This document shows, piece by piece, positions 8,460 through 23,573 of a DNA stretch of 64,000 bases; positions within the stretch are counted from its first letter, which is position 1, and every line of letters begins with the position of its first letter. The notes under the pieces were generated by a model that was given only the letters and a program-made list of their open reading frames with translations, ran no database searches and was not told the DNA's origin. The translations under genes were made by a program, and so were the position numbers. The stretch is from Anaerobaca lacustris (GTDB lineage: Bacteria; Planctomycetota; Phycisphaerae; Sedimentisphaerales; Anaerobacaceae). The stretch covers positions 1-64,000 of the forward strand of contig NZ_JASCXX010000017.1 in the NCBI RefSeq assembly GCF_030012215.1, written 5' to 3'.

Positions 8460-8898
8460 GGCCGGATTATATCCCCGCTGGCCGGTGGCTGCAACCATCG
8501 ATATCGAGTGACACCTGTAATGGCGTCGGCGGTCTTATCGGGCCCATTCCGGCGGCCCTGCCCGAGGCCGGCCGGGCGTGGGACCACAGCCGCAACACGT
8601 GTGTTTGTGGGAGGTTATGCGCGACCAATTCTCGTCGAATATGTTGGAGAAAAAATAATGGACAGGCCGAAGTAGATGAAGATGACCCCCAAGGGTTTGA
8701 TGGTCGCCGGGGGAAGCTCTCGCTCCTCGGCTCCAGCAAAGGGAATCGGTGTTGTTTCGAGGTACAATCGTGACACTTGGCAACGTCGCGGCAGAATTAC
8801 TGTCGCGACATCGGCATTGGGTTCATGGACCGCCGCGTCCGCTAAGAAGCGAACCGTTGTGCGGCAGGTGGTCCGAGTCAAAGAGAAAGGATTCAGTT
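8460..8898. other. divergent spacer between udg and the autotransporter gene
   Basis: A 439-bp region. It contains the udg promoter at one end and, at the other, AAAGGA just before the autotransporter ATG. No confident promoter for the autotransporter could be picked. A short - strand frame near 8620-8740 has a hydrophobic end but no good start signal and was not called. Confidence 0.35.
8466..8494 (-). promoter_or_regulatory. promoter for a leaderless udg transcript
   Basis: On the - strand, TTGCAG (8494-8489), a 17-base spacer and a perfect TATAAT (8471-8466) are followed after six bases by the ATG at 8459. The expected transcription start coincides with the A of the start codon, and there is no room for a ribosome binding site. 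Confidence 0.65.
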
Positions 8899-11800
8899 AT
8901 GACGAAGCAAGCGAAGGGACGTATCCGATTGATCGCCGTGGTTTTTCTGCTATTGGGCTTCGGCCTGCTCGGTGCGAATCAGGCCCGAGCCGCCATCACG
9001 GACGTCGGGGAGGTCCTTCCCGTCTATGACGGCGTCTCAGACCCGTGGATTATCACTGAGAATTTCTGGGTCGGGATCGATGCCGATGGTGGGCTGACCG
9101 TCTCAGGTGGGAGCGCTGTCACCAATCCCTACGCGGTTCTGGGCGTCTTTGACGGCGTCACAGGCAGTGCGACGATTACCGGACCTGGCTCGTCCTGGCT
9201 TACCTCCGGTTTCCTGGTGGCAGGCTACGAAGGGATCGGCAACCTGCTGATCGAAGCCGGCGGCCTGGTCGGAAGTGACATCGGCATTCTGGGCGAGGAG
9301 GCGACCGGCGAAGGCAATGCCCTCGTCACCGGAGCCGGTTCGACCTGGACGATTGACGATTACCTGACGGTCGCCCACGAGGGTCAGGCCGCGATGAGCA
9401 TCGAGGACGGCGGTCTCGTCGAGGCGCCTGAGGTCTATATCGGCAACCTGGCCGGCAGCGACGGCATCATCTATGTCATGGATGCTGACTCGCTGCTCAG
9501 TGCGACCGAATCGATCTTTGTCGGTTACGATGGACAGGGCGAGATGGAGGTGACCGACGGCGGCCAGGTCAGCAGCTTCTACGGCGGGATCGGCTACGAT
9601 ATCGGCAGCGACGGCACGGTCACCGTCAGTGGCCTCGATTCCCTCTGGGACAATGAAGGCAGCCTCGGTGTGGGCGTCTTCGGTGACGGGACGCTGACCA
9701 TCACCAACAGCGGGACCGTCGAGAGCCAGGAAGCCGGAGTGGCGGTCGGGCCCGATAGTGTGGCCACCGTCGAGGTCAGCAACGGCGGCACATGGAACAA
9801 CACCGGTGCACTGGCCATAGGAATCCTGGGCGATGGGACCATGACCATCGAGGCCGGCGGGCAGGTTATGAACACGGATGCGTACCTCGGCGGCATGGAC
9901 CCCGAAGCACCCAATGTGGACGTGAGCCCGTTTCTGGGCGATGATCCGCTCGACGGGACCGGCACGGTGTTCGTGACGGGTGCCGGATCTCGCTGGGACA
10001 GTTCGGGCGATCTGTACGTCGGCTACAGCGGCACCGGTGAGTTGGAGGTCAGCCACGCCGGCGTGGTGACCAGCGAATCGGGTATGCTCGGCTTCGAGGT
10101 CGAGGGCGATGGGACCGTCACCGTCACGAATCTCGGCTCGGAATGGGATGTGAACGATGTGCTTACCGTCGGCGGCGCCGGTGAGGGCACGCTGGTGGTG
10201 TCCGACCGCGGCCTCGTGACCGCCGGGGATGTGCAGATCGGTGGCTACATCCCCGAAGAGGGCTTCGAGACCCTCGCCGATTTCCTCGACCCCGACGCCG
10301 TATTGCCGGAAGGGACGGGAACCATCACGGTGATCACGGAGGCGATTCTGGAATCGGACGGTCTGTCCGTCGGCTTCTGGGGCGACGGCACGCTGGACGT
10401 CAACGATGGTGGCCAGGTCGTCAGCGCCTGGGCCGAACTCGGCGTCGGTCCCAATGCGGTGGGTACCGCCACCGTGCGAGGCGCGACCTCGACGTGGACG
10501 ATCGACGACGAATTGACCGTGGGTGTCTATGGACAGGGCGATCTGACCATCGCCGGAGGCGGCCAGGTCTCGGCCTATGATGTGTACGTCGGCGGGGCGC
10601 CTCTGGAGTTGATGACCGATGAGGGTTATGATCCCGATCTGCTGCCCAACGGCACCGGCACGGTAACCGTGACCGGGGCCGACTCGCGTCTGACGGTTGC
10701 CGCTGAGGAGAGCCTCTACGTCGGCTATTTCGGCGACGGTACCCTCGACGTCAACGATGGCGGACAGGTCGAAAGCGCGATGGTTGTTGTCGGCGCCGGG
10801 CCGGATGCCGTCGGCACCGTACGGGTCGAAGACGCCGGTTCGCTGCTGTCGGCCGAGGAGCTGCTCGTCGGCTTCTGGGGCCAGGGCGACGTGACGGTCG
10901 CCGGTGGCGCCCAGACCCTGGTTGGACAGGTTGTGATCGGTGGCGGCCAGATGCCTGACAACATGGATCCCGATATGCTTGCCGACTTCGGCGATCCGAT
11001 GGGAGTCGGGACAGTCACAGTGACCGGGGCGGGCTCCCGGCTGGACGTCGATGATTTTCTCTACGTGGGCTACACGGGCACCGGCACGCTGGATGTCAAC
11101 GACGGTGGCGTCGTCACAAGCGATTACGGCGCCGTGGGCGCTGATCCGGGCAGTACGGGTACGGTGACGGTCAGCGGAACCGATTCGCGCTGGTGGATTG
11201 ACGAGGATCTGGCCGTGGGGGCGTTTGGTGAGGGCGATCTCACGGTTGCGGCCGGCGGTCGGGTCGATGCTGTCGATATCTATGTCGGCGGCTTCGACAC
11301 CGACGCAATGGGCGACCCGGACATGAATGATATCCCCCAAGGCATTGGGACGATCGCTGTGACCGGGGCGGGTTCCCGGCTCGATGCCGATAACTTCCTG
11401 TTCGTCGGCTACACGGGCGACGGCACGCTTGACGTCAACGAAGGCGGCCGCGTCACGAGCTATTACGGCGCCGTCGGAGCCGATGCGGGTAGCACAGGCA
11501 CCGCCACGGTGACCGGCGCCGGTTCCGAGTGGTTGGTATCAGAGGCTCTGGTGGTCGGTGCGTTCGGCCAGGGCGATCTGACCATCTCCGACGGCGGTGG
11601 GGTCTATGCAACCGAAGTCTACATCGGTGGTTTCGATACGGACATCCTGGACGAAGAGATCGAAGAGACGCCGGAAGGAACCGGTACGGTGACGGTTACC
11701 GGGGAAGACTCTTATCTTCAGGCCGGCGGTCCCTTGACCCTCTACGTCGGCTACAGCGGCGACGGCACGCTGGATATCCTCGAAGGCGGTACGGTGCTCA

Positions 11801-14244
11801 GCCAGACGAGCTACATCGGTTACGAAGAAGGCAGCACCGGCACGGTGACGGTCTCCGATCCGAACTCCTCCTGGACGGCAACTGGCAGCCTCCATGTCGG
11901 CTATGGGGGAACGGGCTCTCTAAACGTTTCCGGAGGCGGACTCGTGGATTCGGGCCAATCCTATCTTGCAACTGACGTCGGCGCCGTCGGTGAAGTGATT
12001 GTTGAAGGAGCCGATTCAACCTGGCTGGCGACCAGTATAGCCGTTGGCCAGGAAGGTGAAGGGCGCCTCGTGATTCGTGATGGTGGCGAGGTGACGGTTG
12101 ACGATTGGGTCATCGTGGGTCGGCATGCGGGCTCCGTTGGAGAGGTCACCGTCACGGGGGCCGATTCGCTGTGGGAAATCGGTGGATCTCTTCGGGTCGG
12201 CTGGCTGGGCGAGGGCGAATTGATCGTTTCCGAGGGTGGACAGGTGTGGAGCGGCGCCGGAGTGCCCGACGCCGGCTACATCGGTGGAGTGCCCGACGGC
12301 ATCGGCTCGGTGACCGTGACCGGCGAAGGCTCTGAATGGATCGAAGAGGGCAACGTGTACGTTGGATACGACGGCACAGGCAGCTTGACCGTTTCTGACG
12401 GCGGCTACGTCAGGAGCGGTGAAGATCTCTTCATCGCATACTCTCGGGAGATCTTCGGCGACGAAGCCAGCGAAGGGCTCGTGACTGTGACGGGCGACGA
12501 CTCCCTGTTGCGCGTCTTCGAAAGCATTTATGTCGGCGGAAGCAGCACACAGGCGGCGGGCACGGGTGTGCTGGCCGTCAACGATGGGGGCCGGGTGATC
12601 GCCGACGAGGTGACCATCTGGGAAACCGGTACGCTGACCGGTGACGGTACCGTCTCGGTGATGGTGCCGACAACCGTGCATAACTATGGCACCATCGCCC
12701 CCGGCGACGATGGCATCGGGACGCTGACGGTCGAAGGCGACGTGGTCTTCCATGAAGGCTCGACGTTCGACGTTCAGATCGGCGGCACCGAGGCCGACAA
12801 GCTCGCGGTCGATGGTGACGTGACCATTCATGAGTATACGACGGTGCAGGTCCGCTCGGTGGGCACCGTCGTCGGGACCCAGGAGTACGAGATTATCGAG
12901 GCCGATTCGGTGACTGGGACCTTCGACGTTCTCGACACGGCTCTGCTGACCCTCTACTTCAATGAGATCGGGCTGGAGTACGAGCCCGGCTCAGTGTGGC
13001 TGTGGATCGACGCGATGCGATTCGACGATCCGAACATCGTGCGGACGTACAACCAGCGCCAGGTCGCCGGAGGATTGCAGGAGATCGCCGATGAAGGTGG
13101 CAATGCGATTACCGCAGACCTTCAGATGGTCGAGACGAACGAAGAGTTGCTGGACAACTACGACCAGCTCGCCGGGCGGAGCCGGCCTTCGCTGGCGCCG
13201 ATTGCGGCGGCCGGGACGGGACGGTTCCTGGGCAGCGTTTCCAGCCGGCTGCGGAACCCCAGCGCGGTGGTGGCCTCCGGCAACTGGACCGGCTCGCAGT
13301 TGTCCGGCTCGGCCGGCCCCGACGGCGCCTTGGGCAGCCGCACGTCGTACGACATCAACATGGGCGGCTACAACTTCGCCGTCGGCAACGGCAGCCCCTA
13401 TCTGAGCGACAGCCCGTGGGGAGTCTGGGCCAAGGGCTATGGCCTGTTCGGCAACCGGGACCACAGCCTCGAGGCCCCCGGCTACGACTACCGGACCTAC
13501 GGCGTCAGCATGGGGCTCGACTACCAGTTCACCGAGACGCTGCTGATCGGTCTGACCGGCGGCTATGCCGACACCCACGTCAATTACGACCGCTCGCGGG
13601 ACAACAGCGACCTGCGGGCGATGCACTTCGGGTTCTACGGAAGCTGGAGTCTCGGAAGCGGCTATCTCGATTCCCTCCTGACCTACAGCGACCTCGACTA
13701 CGACACGCAGCGCTACGTCGATCTGACCGGCGAGCGGCTCGAAGGCGAGTTCGGCGGCTACGCCGTCAGCGGCTACTTCGAGACCGGCTTCGACTGGCGG
13801 CACGTCGCGGGCTGGCTGGTCCAGCCGCTGGCCAGTTTCCAGTTCTCCTATCTCGGCCTCGACAGCTACCGCGAGTCCGGCGGCGACGCCGCGCTGGGCT
13901 TCAAACGCCAGAACTTCGAGTCCTACATTGGCTCGCTCGGCGCCAAAGTGAGCAAGGACCTGCTCCGCGACAGCGCCACCAGCCGTCTGGCCGTACAGTT
14001 CCGGGCCCGCTGGCTGCATGAGTTCGGCGATACGCGGTCCGACGTGAATACGTACTTCGCCAGCGATCCGACCGTGGTCTTCAATATCCGCAACGAGCGG
14101 ATCGACAGGGACAGCGCGGTTCTGGGCCTGGGCCTCGGCGCCGAACTGAACCGCCGCACGCGGCTCTACGTGGACTACGACACCCGGCTGAACGCCGACG
14201 ACACCGCTCACCTCATCAGCGCTGGTCTCCAGCACCGCTGGTAA
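8899..14244 (+). CDS. large autotransporter (type Va secretion) with repeat passenger
   Basis: A 1781-residue outer-membrane autotransporter. A signal peptide (RLIAVVFLLLGFGLLGANQARA, split here only for description) covers about residues 1-32. Residues 60-1290 are about twenty tandem units of roughly 45-65 residues, each with a GTGTVTVTGAGS-like strand, a LYVGYxGxGTLDVNDGG turn and a short spacer; this predicts a long beta-helical stalk. A linker with TYNQRQVAGGLQEIAD follows, typical of the region before the barrel. Residues from about 1504 (SPWGVWAKGYG) to the end form the autotransporter beta-barrel, finishing in the aromatic tail LQHRW that BAM recognises. The ATG at 8899 has AAAGGA upstream. 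The passenger may be an adhesin; the ligand is unknown. A strong terminator follows. Confidence 0.88.
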   Translation: MTKQAKGRIRLIAVVFLLLGFGLLGANQARAAITDVGEVLPVYDGVSDPWIITENFWVGIDADGGLTVSGGSAVTNPYAVLGVFDGVTGSATITGPGSSWLTSGFLVAGYEGIGNLLIEAGGLVGSDIGILGEEATGEGNALVTGAGSTWTIDDYLTVAHEGQAAMSIEDGGLVEAPEVYIGNLAGSDGIIYVMDADSLLSATESIFVGYDGQGEMEVTDGGQVSSFYGGIGYDIGSDGTVTVSGLDSLWDNEGSLGVGVFGDGTLTITNSGTVESQEAGVAVGPDSVATVEVSNGGTWNNTGALAIGILGDGTMTIEAGGQVMNTDAYLGGMDPEAPNVDVSPFLGDDPLDGTGTVFVTGAGSRWDSSGDLYVGYSGTGELEVSHAGVVTSESGMLGFEVEGDGTVTVTNLGSEWDVNDVLTVGGAGEGTLVVSDRGLVTAGDVQIGGYIPEEGFETLADFLDPDAVLPEGTGTITVITEAILESDGLSVGFWGDGTLDVNDGGQVVSAWAELGVGPNAVGTATVRGATSTWTIDDELTVGVYGQGDLTIAGGGQVSAYDVYVGGAPLELMTDEGYDPDLLPNGTGTVTVTGADSRLTVAAEESLYVGYFGDGTLDVNDGGQVESAMVVVGAGPDAVGTVRVEDAGSLLSAEELLVGFWGQGDVTVAGGAQTLVGQVVIGGGQMPDNMDPDMLADFGDPMGVGTVTVTGAGSRLDVDDFLYVGYTGTGTLDVNDGGVVTSDYGAVGADPGSTGTVTVSGTDSRWWIDEDLAVGAFGEGDLTVAAGGRVDAVDIYVGGFDTDAMGDPDMNDIPQGIGTIAVTGAGSRLDADNFLFVGYTGDGTLDVNEGGRVTSYYGAVGADAGSTGTATVTGAGSEWLVSEALVVGAFGQGDLTISDGGGVYATEVYIGGFDTDILDEEIEETPEGTGTVTVTGEDSYLQAGGPLTLYVGYSGDGTLDILEGGTVLSQTSYIGYEEGSTGTVTVSDPNSSWTATGSLHVGYGGTGSLNVSGGGLVDSGQSYLATDVGAVGEVIVEGADSTWLATSIAVGQEGEGRLVIRDGGEVTVDDWVIVGRHAGSVGEVTVTGADSLWEIGGSLRVGWLGEGELIVSEGGQVWSGAGVPDAGYIGGVPDGIGSVTVTGEGSEWIEEGNVYVGYDGTGSLTVSDGGYVRSGEDLFIAYSREIFGDEASEGLVTVTGDDSLLRVFESIYVGGSSTQAAGTGVLAVNDGGRVIADEVTIWETGTLTGDGTVSVMVPTTVHNYGTIAPGDDGIGTLTVEGDVVFHEGSTFDVQIGGTEADKLAVDGDVTIHEYTTVQVRSVGTVVGTQEYEIIEADSVTGTFDVLDTALLTLYFNEIGLEYEPGSVWLWIDAMRFDDPNIVRTYNQRQVAGGLQEIADEGGNAITADLQMVETNEELLDNYDQLAGRSRPSLAPIAAAGTGRFLGSVSSRLRNPSAVVASGNWTGSQLSGSAGPDGALGSRTSYDINMGGYNFAVGNGSPYLSDSPWGVWAKGYGLFGNRDHSLEAPGYDYRTYGVSMGLDYQFTETLLIGLTGGYADTHVNYDRSRDNSDLRAMHFGFYGSWSLGSGYLDSLLTYSDLDYDTQRYVDLTGERLEGEFGGYAVSGYFETGFDWRHVAGWLVQPLASFQFSYLGLDSYRESGGDAALGFKRQNFESYIGSLGAKVSKDLLRDSATSRLAVQFRARWLHEFGDTRSDVNTYFASDPTVVFNIRNERIDRDSAVLGLGLGAELNRRTRLYVDYDTRLNADDTAHLISAGLQHRW
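9100..12640 (+). repeat. degenerate tandem coding repeats in the autotransporter passenger
   Basis: About twenty imperfect units of roughly 135-200 bp with recurring segments such as GACGGCACGCTGGA(C/T)GTCAACGA. Units between about 10250 and 11800 are the most alike and include an extra METPEE/DPDxL-like acidic insert. The pattern suggests expansion by internal duplication. These are protein-coding repeats, not a CRISPR array. Confidence 0.75.
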
Positions 14245-16478: not shown

Positions 16479-17255
16479 ATGTCTCTCGGGCAGATCATCC
16501 GACAGAAGCGTGAGCAGTTGAACATGACCCTCGACGAGGTGAGCAACCGCGTGGGGTTCTCCAAACCTTACCTGTCCACGATTGAGACAGGCAAGGTCAA
16601 GAACCCGCCGAGCGATGAGTTGCTGACCAAGCTCGAACGCACGCTCAAGTTCGAGTCGGGTCTGTTGTTGCACATCGCCCACCTGGAACGCATGCCGTCG
16701 GACGTCCGCGAGGAATACGAATCGCGAGAGGCCGAGAACCAGAAGCTCCGGCAGTTCCTCAAGAAGCTGGCCGCCAAGAAGCAGGGCGGCCGGGAGGTCA
16801 AGGCGCTTCTGACCCGCAACCGCCTGAACGTGGAGGAGGGCAAGCGGACGCTCGCCGCCGGGCGGCTCGTCCCGATCATCAACAAGGTCACCGCCGGCTA
16901 CCCTGCCGAATTTAACGATCTGGATTATCCCGTTGGTGTGGCCGACGATTACGTTCGCTGCCCCGACCTGCACGATCCGAACGCCTTCGCCGTGCGCGTG
17001 GTGGGCGACTCGATGGAGCCGAAGTTTGTCGAGGGCGACATCGTGATCTTCTCCCCGGCCGTCGAGGTGCACAACGGCGACGACTGCTTCGTCCGCTTCA
17101 CATTGCCGCACGAGACGACGTTCAAGCGGGTCTTCTTCGAGACCGGCGACCAGATCCGCCTCCAGCCTCGCAACGAGAAGTATTCGCCGACCGTCGTCGA
17201 GGGCAAGCGGATCAACGGCGTCTATCGCGCCATCGTCAAGTACCAGCGGCTCTGA
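16479..17255 (+). CDS. XRE-type HTH / S24 peptidase (LexA/CI-like) regulator
   Basis: A 258-residue transcription regulator. Residues 1-65 are an XRE helix-turn-helix (IIRQKREQLNMTLDEVSNRVGFSKPYLSTIE). A charged coiled stretch follows (about 70-110). The C-terminal half is an S24 self-cleaving peptidase domain with the catalytic serine in VVGDSMEP and the lysine in TTFKRVF. A candidate Ala-Gly cleavage site is visible in KVTAGYPAEF, ahead of the serine as expected. Such proteins repress genes until RecA-type filaments or another signal trigger self-cleavage. The XRE rather than winged-helix N-terminus separates it from classical LexA and makes it more like phage CI/ImmR-type or Phycisphaerae-type regulators. 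Its targets are unknown; it is probably co-transcribed with the DUF362 gene. Confidence 0.85.
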   Translation: MSLGQIIRQKREQLNMTLDEVSNRVGFSKPYLSTIETGKVKNPPSDELLTKLERTLKFESGLLLHIAHLERMPSDVREEYESREAENQKLRQFLKKLAAKKQGGREVKALLTRNRLNVEEGKRTLAAGRLVPIINKVTAGYPAEFNDLDYPVGVADDYVRCPDLHDPNAFAVRVVGDSMEPKFVEGDIVIFSPAVEVHNGDDCFVRFTLPHETTFKRVFFETGDQIRLQPRNEKYSPTVVEGKRINGVYRAIVKYQRL

Positions 17256-21207: not shown

Positions 21208-22767
21208 TCAGCGTTGTCCCCAGCCGATTGTTCCTGTGTTCTCAAGGACGATCTCAAGGTCGGCCTCGTCGACGATCCCGTCGCCGTTGAGGTCGGCTGC
21301 TGCCGCCGGGTCGTCCGGATCTGTGATCTCGGCGCCCAGATGTTCGGTCACGATTGCCGCATCGCTTTCGTCCACGCGCCAATCGCCGTTGACGTCACCG
21401 ACCGGCGCCGGGTGCCTGTAGTCGCCCGGACAGCTCACGTCGGCGACGGCGTCAATCTCGGTTCCGCCGCCTCCGGGGGCGTCGTCGATACGCACGTACC
21501 GAAACCACTTACGCTGCGTATCGGGATCGATGGGCAGATCGAGTCGGGCGATGTCGTAGCCGGTCCCGCCGGCCGAATCGCCGTAGATCTGCGCCACGCG
21601 GGCGACCGAGCGGCCGGCCAGCGCCTCGAAGGACAGGCTCGGGTTGAGCGGCAGCGTGGGATTGGTCGGCTCGGCCCACCAGCGGTTCCATTCGCCAATG
21701 GACGTGTCGGCGTTGTCCGGATCGTATATGCGTCCCAGCGTCGGGGCGAAGCCATCGCAGAACGGGCCGTCCTCGGCGTCGGCGGCCAGCTTGATGAAGT
21801 TGGGGTTGCCGGCCATGAAGTTCGGATCGCTGGTGAAGCTGTACCATGTCACGCCGTCCTGGCTGACCGAGACGATGCCGGGCTCGCTGCCGCCGGAGGG
21901 GCCGACGAACACCTCGGTCGGGTCGCCGTTGTTCCAGCTCTGTCCGGCGGCCAGCGCTTGCGGCGCGTTGCCGAAGACGATGAAGTCGATGCCGTACGGA
22001 TTGTGCACGTCGTCGCGGACGGGGTTGTTGAAGGCCAGTGTGATGGACCCGCCTTCGCCGAGGAAGGCCACCTCGAAGTGTCGGAAGGCCGGGTAGACCG
22101 GCACGACCGGAGCGGGGGTGTCCAGCGGGATCGACCAGTCGTCGCCAGTCGTATCCACGGTGGGCCGGCCGAGGGCCGCGTTCGGGTCGTCGAAGGCGAT
22201 GCCGCTGAGCCAGTCGCTCATCATGCCGGCGGGCTGGTAGTCGATTACGACCGTGGCGAAGTCGTTTGGATCGTAGACGTACCCTCGATATCCGGCCAGG
22301 AAGGGGACCTCCCACGTCGGTTTCGGCGCGTCGTCGTGACCGTAGATCCAGCCGTCGGCGTCACCGTGGCGGACGATCCGGTCGGCCGCCCCGGTCCAGG
22401 GCGAGATCCAGCCCTCGCGGCTGCGTGCCTCGTCCGTCCAGTAGTGCCACCACAGGTCGCCTCCGCCGTAACCGACGTCGTTGTGGTCCTGATAGGCGAT
22501 CCCGTCGACGGCGACGCCCCAGCCGTAGTCGGCTCGCACGGTGACGAGGTCCGTCTCCGCCTCGATGATGTCCAGCAGTCCGAGACCAGTGGTCGTCTCG
22601 GTCTCGGTCAGGCCGAAGCGCACCCGATATTCGATGCGGAAACCATCGGCCCATTCGATATACACGCGGGCCTCGTTCACGCCCGTACCGACCTCCACAG
22701 GCGCTGCCGTCGCCGCCGTGACGATCGCCAGCAGCAGGCCCAATCCCAAGAACTGTATACGTCTCAT
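21208..22767 (-). CDS. B12-riboswitch-controlled secreted protein, transcobalamin-C-terminal-like plus dockerin
   Basis: A 519-residue exported protein. The signal peptide is MRRIQFLGLGLLLAIVTAATA. Residues about 25-145 resemble DUF4430, the transcobalamin/intrinsic-factor C-terminal fold: GLLDIIEAETD, YGWGVAVDGIAY, DLWWHYW, then a GA and DADGWIYG ending. Residues about 240-450 resemble the surface proteins found with B12 transport genes in Bacteroidetes (GEGGSITLAFNNPV, DFIVFGNA, PGIVSVSQDGVTWYSF). The C-terminus is a type I dockerin with two calcium loops (DVNGDWRVDESD and DLNGDGIVDEAD). The ATG at 22767 has GGAGGAAACAG upstream. A cobalamin riboswitch and terminator lie upstream on the same strand. 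I infer a B12-capturing surface protein; similarity is by eye only. Confidence 0.7.
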   Translation of the reverse strand: MRRIQFLGLGLLLAIVTAATAAPVEVGTGVNEARVYIEWADGFRIEYRVRFGLTETETTTGLGLLDIIEAETDLVTVRADYGWGVAVDGIAYQDHNDVGYGGGDLWWHYWTDEARSREGWISPWTGAADRIVRHGDADGWIYGHDDAPKPTWEVPFLAGYRGYVYDPNDFATVVIDYQPAGMMSDWLSGIAFDDPNAALGRPTVDTTGDDWSIPLDTPAPVVPVYPAFRHFEVAFLGEGGSITLAFNNPVRDDVHNPYGIDFIVFGNAPQALAAGQSWNNGDPTEVFVGPSGGSEPGIVSVSQDGVTWYSFTSDPNFMAGNPNFIKLAADAEDGPFCDGFAPTLGRIYDPDNADTSIGEWNRWWAEPTNPTLPLNPSLSFEALAGRSVARVAQIYGDSAGGTGYDIARLDLPIDPDTQRKWFRYVRIDDAPGGGGTEIDAVADVSCPGDYRHPAPVGDVNGDWRVDESDAAIVTEHLGAEITDPDDPAAAADLNGDGIVDEADLEIVLENTGTIGWGQR

Positions 22768-22908: not shown

Positions 22909-22945
22909 AAAAAAACCGCCGTTCCCGCAAAGCGGAACGACGGTT
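22909..22945 (-). terminator. intrinsic terminator of the cobalamin riboswitch
   Basis: On the - strand, AACCGTCGTTCCGC pairs with the complementary arm GCGGGAACGGCGGTT (one bulge and one G-U pair) and runs into seven Ts (22915-22909). It lies about 100 bases after the riboswitch and about 140 before the start codon, as expected for transcriptional attenuation. Confidence 0.8.
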
Positions 22946-23042
22946 CAATGACTGCGTACGGTCCCGGCCCGACACCACAGACCCGGACTGCGCCTTCACA
23001 CGTGCGTTCCATATCGCGAGAACACCCACAATGTGCGATCGA

Positions 23043-23237
23043 CTACAGGCAGGTCTTCTGACTTGCGTCCTACCTCGAGGCTCCTTCCCATCCGCACGCA
23101 GCGGACAGTGGATACCGGCCTCTCGGATTTCCGATGCTTCCATCGGAGCGGGCGCTCACAGCGGCGCGACCGTCGCGGATTTTCACCGCGTTCCCGTTTG
23201 AGTATCCCAGGACCAGCGTCCTGGGACCTGCAGCCGA
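23043..23237 (-). promoter_or_regulatory. cobalamin (B12) riboswitch
   Basis: Reading the - strand 5' to 3', the conserved core is present: ACGGGAACGCGGTGAAAATC, then CCGCTGTGA, then TATCCACTGTC, GATGGGAAGG, and the 3' closing GAAGACCTGCC. The outer P1 stem can be formed by CAGGTC near 23228 with GACCTG near 23050. These match the Cobalamin riboswitch family in order and spacing. An adenosyl- or methylcobalamin-bound aptamer would promote the downstream terminator at 22909-22945 and lower expression of the dockerin protein when B12 is plentiful. Confidence 0.88.
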
Positions 23238-23573
23238 GCGATGCACTTTCACAAAGAGCGTGCCATCATACATACGCCGTCCCGCCCATCCTGTCAATAC
23301 GGAAAAGCTCATCAAAGCAAAATTGTCGCCGTTCCCGGTCGGGCCGGAATCTCGGCCCCAGCGCGAGGCAGCGGGGGCGTGAGAACACCTGATTTGTGCC
23401 CATGCCGCTTCGAGCCCGAATGGCGTCCCGGCAGTTCTCAATGCGTCTTGTTCGTGCGCTTCTGGCACCCCAATCGATGTAACATTGGCCGGGCCGGCGC
23501 AACTGTGTTTCACGGGATGCTTGGGCGAAGAGTTCAATCGACTCCTATGTGCCTGGCGATGCGCGAGGTGAGA
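23238..23573. other. intergenic region between the riboswitch and the methyltransferase gene
   Basis: This divergent 336-bp stretch must hold the promoter of the riboswitch transcript (- strand) and that of the methyltransferase gene (+ strand). No clear -35/-10 pair was picked for either. The frame of the methyltransferase stays open through it, but codon content and lack of start signals argue against coding. Confidence 0.35.

Follow-up and report, generated by a model that had tools for sequence, protein, structure and literature searches.

What does a cobalamin riboswitch control when the gene behind it encodes a secreted dockerin protein? The question is raised by a 64,000-nucleotide stretch of the Anaerobaca lacustris genome (the whole of which we refer to as the window), for which a preliminary description, made by reading the letters, had proposed a B12 riboswitch core and an intrinsic terminator on the minus strand, a single secreted surface protein behind them, and a B12 capture system outside the TonB/BtuB scheme. 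When the window was scanned with cmscan, the Rfam cobalamin model RF00174 matched over its full length (model positions 1-189 of 189) with 90.2 bits (gathering score 31.5), and this match (23246-23031, minus strand) was the sole match to any Rfam family above gathering score in the window, which bears out the proposed core. The terminator stands as well: a hairpin starting approximately 80 nt downstream of the aptamer, with a 13-pair stem and seven T, folds with -22.2 kcal/mol (z -3.48), a value equalled in 1 of 200 shuffles, and in each of the 17 loci compared (the window and L036-L051) an equivalent hairpin and T run separates the aptamer from the first gene (-21.0 to -27.7 kcal/mol, with leader ends placed by hand from ORF starts). 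A crude terminator-pattern scan over 11 kb, which returned 6 sites against 6.2 expected, is uninformative by itself. Because the terminator is kept in 17 of 17 loci and only 7 of 136 shuffled leaders reached -14 kcal/mol or better, we conclude that the region has the layout of a B12 switch acting by transcription termination, through which B12 would repress the genes downstream. Further, we note that, in the window, the 5' arm of the terminator (22949-22932) is complementary to the aptamer core at 23195-23184 (GGGAACGCGGTG). The best complement of this arm is the aptamer core near GGGAAC in some loci and the linker or other sites elsewhere, and in some relatives the arm pairs with a GGAACG linker site; the complement is thus a possible antiterminator.

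Table 1. Features of the putative B12-regulated cassette in the window
Feature	Coordinates	Strand	Evidence or remark
Cobalamin riboswitch aptamer (RF00174)	23031..23246	-	cmscan 90.2 bits, E 5.4e-21, full model
Intrinsic terminator	22909..22946	-	13-pair stem 22946-22913 and seven T (22915-22909)
Gene P0001, A-B-dockerin protein, 519 aa	21208..22767	-	GGAGG at 22778-22774 before ATG
Putative signal peptide, P0001 residues 1-21	22705..22767	-	by eye, without lipobox Cys
Domain A, P0001 residues 22-152	22312..22704	-	transcobalamin/intrinsic-factor beta-domain-like, AlphaFold pLDDT 94.1
Domain B, P0001 residues 153-459	21391..22311	-	BtuH-like, AlphaFold pLDDT 92.8
Type I dockerin, P0001 residues 457-507	21247..21399	-	PF00404, E 3e-11
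Gene P0002 (C), prepilin-like H-X9-DG protein, 264 aa	20309..21103	-	TIGR04294, 20.7 bits (cut-off 19)

As shown in Table 1, the first gene behind the switch, P0001, is preceded by GGAGG six bases 5' of its start codon at 22767 and encodes a protein that, judging from its N terminus, is probably secreted. Outside the dockerin, its sole Pfam match was DUF6689 at noise level (E 0.17), neither P0001 nor P0002 matched the Plug or barrel of TonB-dependent receptors in Pfam, and a tblastn plasmid search with P0001 returned no match. To this extent the preliminary description is supported: a B12 switch with an intrinsic terminator precedes a probably secreted product that is neither a known enzyme nor a barrel, and the predicted folds and the neighbors considered below point toward B12 capture. 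A weak NCBIfam match to the Leptospira LIC_13355 lipoproteins (residues 237-322, E 0.0077) was also seen; these lipoproteins may be BtuH-like too. The dockerin gene is not, as had been stated, the sole gene behind the switch: P0002 begins 104 nt past the P0001 stop codon, and the comF reading frame follows 28 nt beyond P0002. By our reading, the position of comF (window 20280-19504) immediately behind the cassette is kept in family loci, a 258-aa XRE/LexA-like gene past comF (window 16479-17255) is syntenic across several of them, and a 1831-aa autotransporter-like secreted protein is encoded on the plus strand of the window at 8749-14244.

We modeled the two domains of P0001 from alignments of 63 (domain A) and 84 (domain B) sequences, from which rows with model coverage below 85%, rows with X and duplicates had been removed; for domain B, 85 rows were available and L087:3503-4189 was left out. 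Alignment A1 omits L039, and alignment A2 omits L037. The domain A model is predicted, by strand order and structure matches, to have a beta-grasp fold with a hairpin after the helix. In VIA-align comparisons, it matched 2pmv with Z 13.9 (rmsd 2.1, 106 aligned), 4kki with 13.8, 7qbe with 13.6 and 3u7z from Ruminococcus gnavus with 12.2, the next unrelated structure scoring 6.8. The best 19 rows of the Foldseek search were mammalian B12 carriers and 3u7z, at modest E-values (2.1e-3 at best). At the sequence level, the domain A profile retrieved solely a frataxin chain from the PDB sequences (E 0.82), and the larger domain A and B alignments retrieved nothing at E<=10. We conclude that, as modeled, domain A resembles in fold the B12-binding beta domain of intrinsic factor and transcobalamin, of which the isolated human transcobalamin domain has been solved with bound cobalamin (PMC5599065).

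For domain B, the sole Foldseek matches below 0.001 were two Bacteroides structures, 8blw (BtuG1, E 6.5e-7), the C-terminal part of which is a BtuH domain (PMC10404256), and 7biz (BtuH2, E 2.4e-6). The model aligned to 7biz with Z 12.6 (rmsd 3.7, 157 aligned) and to 8blw with Z 11.9, both at 26% identity, and the next structure scored 9.4. A profile of the 84 members retrieved no PDB sequence at E<=10, and a smaller one retrieved dockerins and EF-hand proteins alone. Two more distant B relatives provide a bridge: that of L123 (Omnitrophota) matches BtuH2 with E 2e-17 and the BtuH part of BtuG1 with E 3.9e-16, that of L121 (Phycisphaerae) matches them with E 3.1e-14 and 3.1e-18, and tblastn links the two to domain B (7e-5 and 5e-7, respectively). 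The iterated B model matches each of them in two pieces. Thus, in its modeled fold domain B resembles the B12-binding domain of BtuH, and its sequence homology to BtuH appears to be transitive, via L121 and L123. The likeness has its limits. First, P0001 has neither a Cys in its signal region nor a PKD match, the lipobox Cys and PKD domains being features of BtuH, so that P0001 contains a BtuH-like domain and is not a BtuH. Second, the loop that carries Trp-577, a B12 contact of BtuH2 (PMC8941943), seems, by eye, to be shorter and to have no Trp in planctomycete B domains including that of P0001, which implies that B may not bind as BtuH does. A shared fold is insufficient as proof that the P0001 domains bind B12; cobamide binding by A and B is what the two models suggest.

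We next consider how widely the arrangement is conserved. In the window's own family, 21 of 60 sampled genomes gave a match, A. lacustris included; three (G008, G016 and G033), in which the match was confined to or near the dockerin part, were left out. RF00174 lies upstream of the B match in 18 of 18 loci (L036-L053) from 17 other genomes of the family. Among the 16 well-matching family loci, A and B are separate genes in the order A-B-C in 12, and they are fused in one protein in the window and in L036, L037, L038 and L039; a dockerin is present on 14 of 16 B proteins and a PEP-CTERM signal on 12 of 16 A proteins, 6 of 16 of which also match DUF6689 weakly (best E 0.0044). At L038:321-9884, tandem A domains are convergent with a FecCD-type permease gene and with putative cobalamin-salvage genes, which we take to be cobQ/S/T/U.

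Searching named genomes with B as the only query yielded 70 loci, distributed over Planctomycetota and subgroups, Verrucomicrobia, Kiritimatiellae, Lentisphaerae, Armatimonadota, Desulfobacteraceae and relatives, Akkermansia and Omnitrophota. A cobalamin switch lies upstream on the same strand in 55 of the 70 according to our covariance model R1 (threshold E<1e-3, the E-values being rough because of a short calibration), at least three of the 55 (L066, L067 and L072) repeating loci of the window's own family. Rfam adds two switch-bearing loci (L081 and L100) and agreed with R1 in 7 of 8 loci, L078 giving a weak R1 match (E 0.39) and no RF00174 match. This leaves 13 of 70 loci with neither an R1 match below 1e-3 nor RF00174, the Rfam re-scan having covered the switch-less loci other than L058, L070, L082, L114 and L119. 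In nine of these 13, the B match lies within 1.4 kb of a contig end (L054, L058, L070, L078, L082, L105, L114, L117 and L119), in L122 the match is near the dockerin alone, L083 carries an AdoCbl-II riboswitch (L083:2375-2449) 4.6 kb upstream of its A-B protein, and L076 is a real miss. In L094 (Desulfobulbus elongatus, A-A-B), the first A domain lies 215 nt from the contig edge. Here, a c-di-GMP-I riboswitch is found at that edge (L094:1-59), on the same strand, where other loci carry the cobalamin switch. The locus of L123 (L123:7080-9146) consists of a switch, a BtuH-like B and then a DUF4465 (BtuJ-family) PEP-CTERM protein.

The second gene of the cassette, C, is a conserved partner. P0002 passes the cut-off for TIGR04294 and falls under those for N_methyl (13.1 against 21.2) and DUF1559 (21.8 against 23.3); the C proteins of L060, L104 and L111 pass the N_methyl cut-off. 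C was found by blast in 14 of the 16 well-matching family loci, and by reading in L036 and L037. It is also present in 45 of the 55 loci with switch and B, which range from Planctomycetota to Armatimonadota. In the other 10, no C was found within 3 kb after B: six contigs end 0.7 kb or less after B, L075 and L123 end within 1.8 and 2.2 kb, respectively, and only L092 and L093 leave room for it. A switch governing one gene alone is therefore rejected, and the phrase "single surface protein" in the preliminary description has to give way to a putative capture protein with a conserved pilin-like partner.

In two loci, transporter genes directly follow the cassette. In L060 (Phycisphaerae MAG24), a switch of 102.6 bits is followed by A-B-C-btuF-ATPase-btuC, the best NCBIfam matches being BtuF (9e-31), BtuC for the permease (1e-64) and, for the ATPase, a heme-transporter model (1.8e-74, with the BtuD model at 1.6e-45). 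In L079 (Verrucomicrobia UBA3624), a switch of 67.0 bits is followed by AB, C, a BtuF-like/BtuC-like fusion and an ATPase. The transporter scores are all below the equivalog cut-offs, so that the assignment of the transporter to B12 depends in part on its genomic context. These two loci share the B12 switch, the BtuF/BtuC-type genes and the ATPase with BtuB-BtuFCD operons, but A, B and C occupy the place of btuB. The genome of A. lacustris (97.94% complete) contains one BtuF/BtuC/ATPase set, on contig C13, in which the permease is best matched by BtuC and the ATPase by a corrinoid ATPase model. The only other RF00174 match found in this genome (101.5 bits, with 150 of 333 candidates scored) lies on contig C3 (L003:10999-4844) in front of genes that we take to be nrdD, nrdG, metE and dcd. 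Their products would be an anaerobic ribonucleotide reductase and the corresponding activase, MetE and Dcd, a group that includes B12-independent isozymes, here putatively controlled by B12.

From the switch, terminator, gene order, predicted folds and conserved association found by computation, we infer a B12-repressed cobamide-capture cassette that feeds a BtuFCD-type transporter, a reading that we consider probable. When cobalamin is plentiful, it would bind the aptamer, the terminator (22946-22909) would form, and transcription would stop; when B12 is scarce, the transcript would continue into AB (P0001) and C (P0002). P0001 would then be exported and kept outside the cell or on its surface, perhaps via its dockerin end, where cobamide would be bound by the A and B domains, perhaps gripped from both sides in the manner of the two transcobalamin domains. 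Pilin-like C may aid display, assembly or delivery of the capture protein, and the cargo would end at the BtuFCD-type ABC transporter, the genes for which lie on contig C13 here and, in some relatives, within the cassette operon itself. A caution comes from Bacteroides thetaiotaomicron, in which BtuK2 and BtuL, lipoproteins of B12-uptake operons, did not bind cobalamin (PMC12751083), and hence a place in a B12-uptake operon does not prove binding.

How the cargo would cross the outer membrane is the point on which the readings diverge. One alternative, which we hold to be a serious contender at slightly less than an even chance, is that AB is an accessory of the ordinary TonB pathway, the textbook step of which is the receptor BtuB; AB would load B12 onto an unlinked receptor, like BtuH or BtuJ, and C would only help to export or anchor AB. 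It fits the BtuH-likeness of domain B in predicted fold and transitive sequence, and it fits the two Plug-bearing TonB-type receptors of the A. lacustris genome, on contigs C4 and C30. Neither of these, by our reading, adjoins B12 genes, which speaks against it: one lies beside a YfiR-like gene and histidine kinases, and the other is a protein of 968 aa with, by eye, a carboxypeptidase-regulatory-like start. Plug proteins are present in 27 of 47 cassette genomes and in 10 of 16 genomes of the window's family, which again favors the accessory role, but the Plug domain was not found in the remaining 20 of 47 (19 of 44 with C, plus the L123 genome) and 6 of 16, and none of these 26 Plug-less genomes has a PF00593 barrel above cut-off (G370 has one sub-threshold match). 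The 47 genomes derive from the 55 switch-bearing loci (44 of 45 with C, L064 being omitted, plus L092, L093 and L123) and the 16 from the 18 family genomes (without G014 and G043); because G362, G363 and G366 are apparently G044, G022 and G003 (identical match places), the two counts overlap. The Plug-less genomes include those of L060, L079, Botrimarina colliarenosi strain Pla108 (L115, G394) and G045 (96% complete). Since metagenome assemblies make up most of the Plug-less set, some absences may be gaps. FecCD permeases were detected in 23 of the 26 (22 above cut-off), some of them weak, that of Botrimarina at 4.5e-9.

Within the locus stretches, which were searched with a receptor model trained on 13 receptors, that of L092 among them, TonB receptors were found in 2 of 101 sources. 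In L092, from a Desulfobacteraceae relative, a receptor confirmed by Pfam comes first behind the switch, with AB later, an order that suits the accessory role; the other, located upstream of the L084 switch, is a fragment. The model found none inside the planctomycete and verrucomicrobial cassettes examined, L060 and L079 included. The proposal of a system outside the TonB/BtuB scheme therefore survives in part: the window cassette has no receptor gene, and no Plug protein was found in many relatives, but two TonB-type receptors in the same genome, the receptor of L092 and the likeness of B to BtuH count against it.

A bolder alternative, which we regard as unlikely, is a TonB-independent route in planctomycetes and related phyla without any TonB-dependent receptor, in which a pilin-like protein assembled by a type II/IV system would take the place of BtuB and carry either the capture protein or the cobamide bound to it across the outer membrane, for handover to the BtuFCD-type transporter. 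Secretion ATPases (PF00437) were found in 8 of 8 genomes tried and likewise in control genomes; pilin assembly is thus possible, and the evidence is unspecific. Planctomycete pili-like fibers are reported to bind dextran, alongside mention of an uptake system that awaits characterization (PMC5394234), and as a hint to a role of C at the outer membrane, which such a route would need, these fibers are suggestive only.

That the capture protein serves extracellular or biofilm storage of B12, or its denial to neighbors, and not uptake by the cell, seems improbable to us: the dockerins of B and the PEP-CTERM signals of A would agree with anchoring to a matrix or surface, but L060 and L079 carry BtuFC-type transporter genes within the operon, and a B12-repressed switch would suit uptake better than storage. 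Finally, a chance association of the pilin-like gene with the cassette is scarcely credible and was discarded, because, even though pilin-like genes are common (P0002 has 62 matches in its own genome, itself included), C is enriched behind B (178 per Mb compared with 4.9 per Mb-strand in the remainder of those loci) and the cassette C proteins of 14 loci are 42-61% identical to P0002 over nearly the full length, compared with 29% (58.7 bits) for its best paralogue in the A. lacustris genome.

The proposed B12-repressed capture cassette resembles several known systems and coincides with none of them. In Bacteroides, BtuH binds B12 at the cell surface and has been proposed to act together with BtuB and BtuG (PMC10404256, PMC8941943); P0001 shares with it (BtuH2, 7BIZ; H domain of BtuG1, 8BLW) the predicted B fold and the transitive sequence similarity, and control by a B12 riboswitch and a surface location also appear alike (PMC8941943, PMC10404256). 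Unlike BtuH, P0001 joins its B domain with a transcobalamin-like domain and a dockerin in one chain, without PKD match or lipobox and with a seemingly different Trp-577 contact loop, and the window cassette has no BtuB or BtuG gene. With the beta domain of animal transcobalamin, intrinsic factor and haptocorrin, P0001 shares the predicted A fold and a presumed extracellular location, but it has no alpha/alpha toroid; its remainder is the mostly-beta, BtuH-like B model and the dockerin. A transcobalamin-like SLBB clade was placed in planctomycetes in 2007, and its extracellular members were predicted to be B12 scavengers (PMC1796856); the words riboswitch and dockerin are absent from the main text of that paper. 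The DUF4465/BtuJ proteins, secreted B12 binders tied to B12-uptake loci in many phyla (PMC13398666, PMC12751083), are likewise secreted and B12-linked, and one stands beside B in L123, but they are a different family: a classification of P0001 as a DUF4465 protein was rejected, PF14717 giving no match at E<=1. The DUF4465 members tested bind B12, among them that of the planctomycete Mucisphaera calidilacus (PMC13398666), which, although from a family other than that of P0001, is the one planctomycete biochemical datum that we met.

Overall, the parts of the cassette are of known kinds (riboswitch, BtuH-like and transcobalamin-like domains), and no example that combines switch, A and B with a pilin-like partner in the absence of a receptor gene was encountered in the part of the open-licence literature surveyed, to which extent the combination is new. 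If the predicted folds are correct, the cassette would unite the fold of an animal B12 carrier and that of Bacteroides BtuH in one B12-regulated bacterial protein. A BtuB-type TonB receptor, the textbook uptake step, was not found in many of the genomes that carry the cassette. The defined gene set A, B and C, accompanied by btuF/btuC in two genomes, together with Botrimarina colliarenosi Pla108, offers an entry to the question of whether TonB is dispensable for the passage of B12 across an outer membrane.
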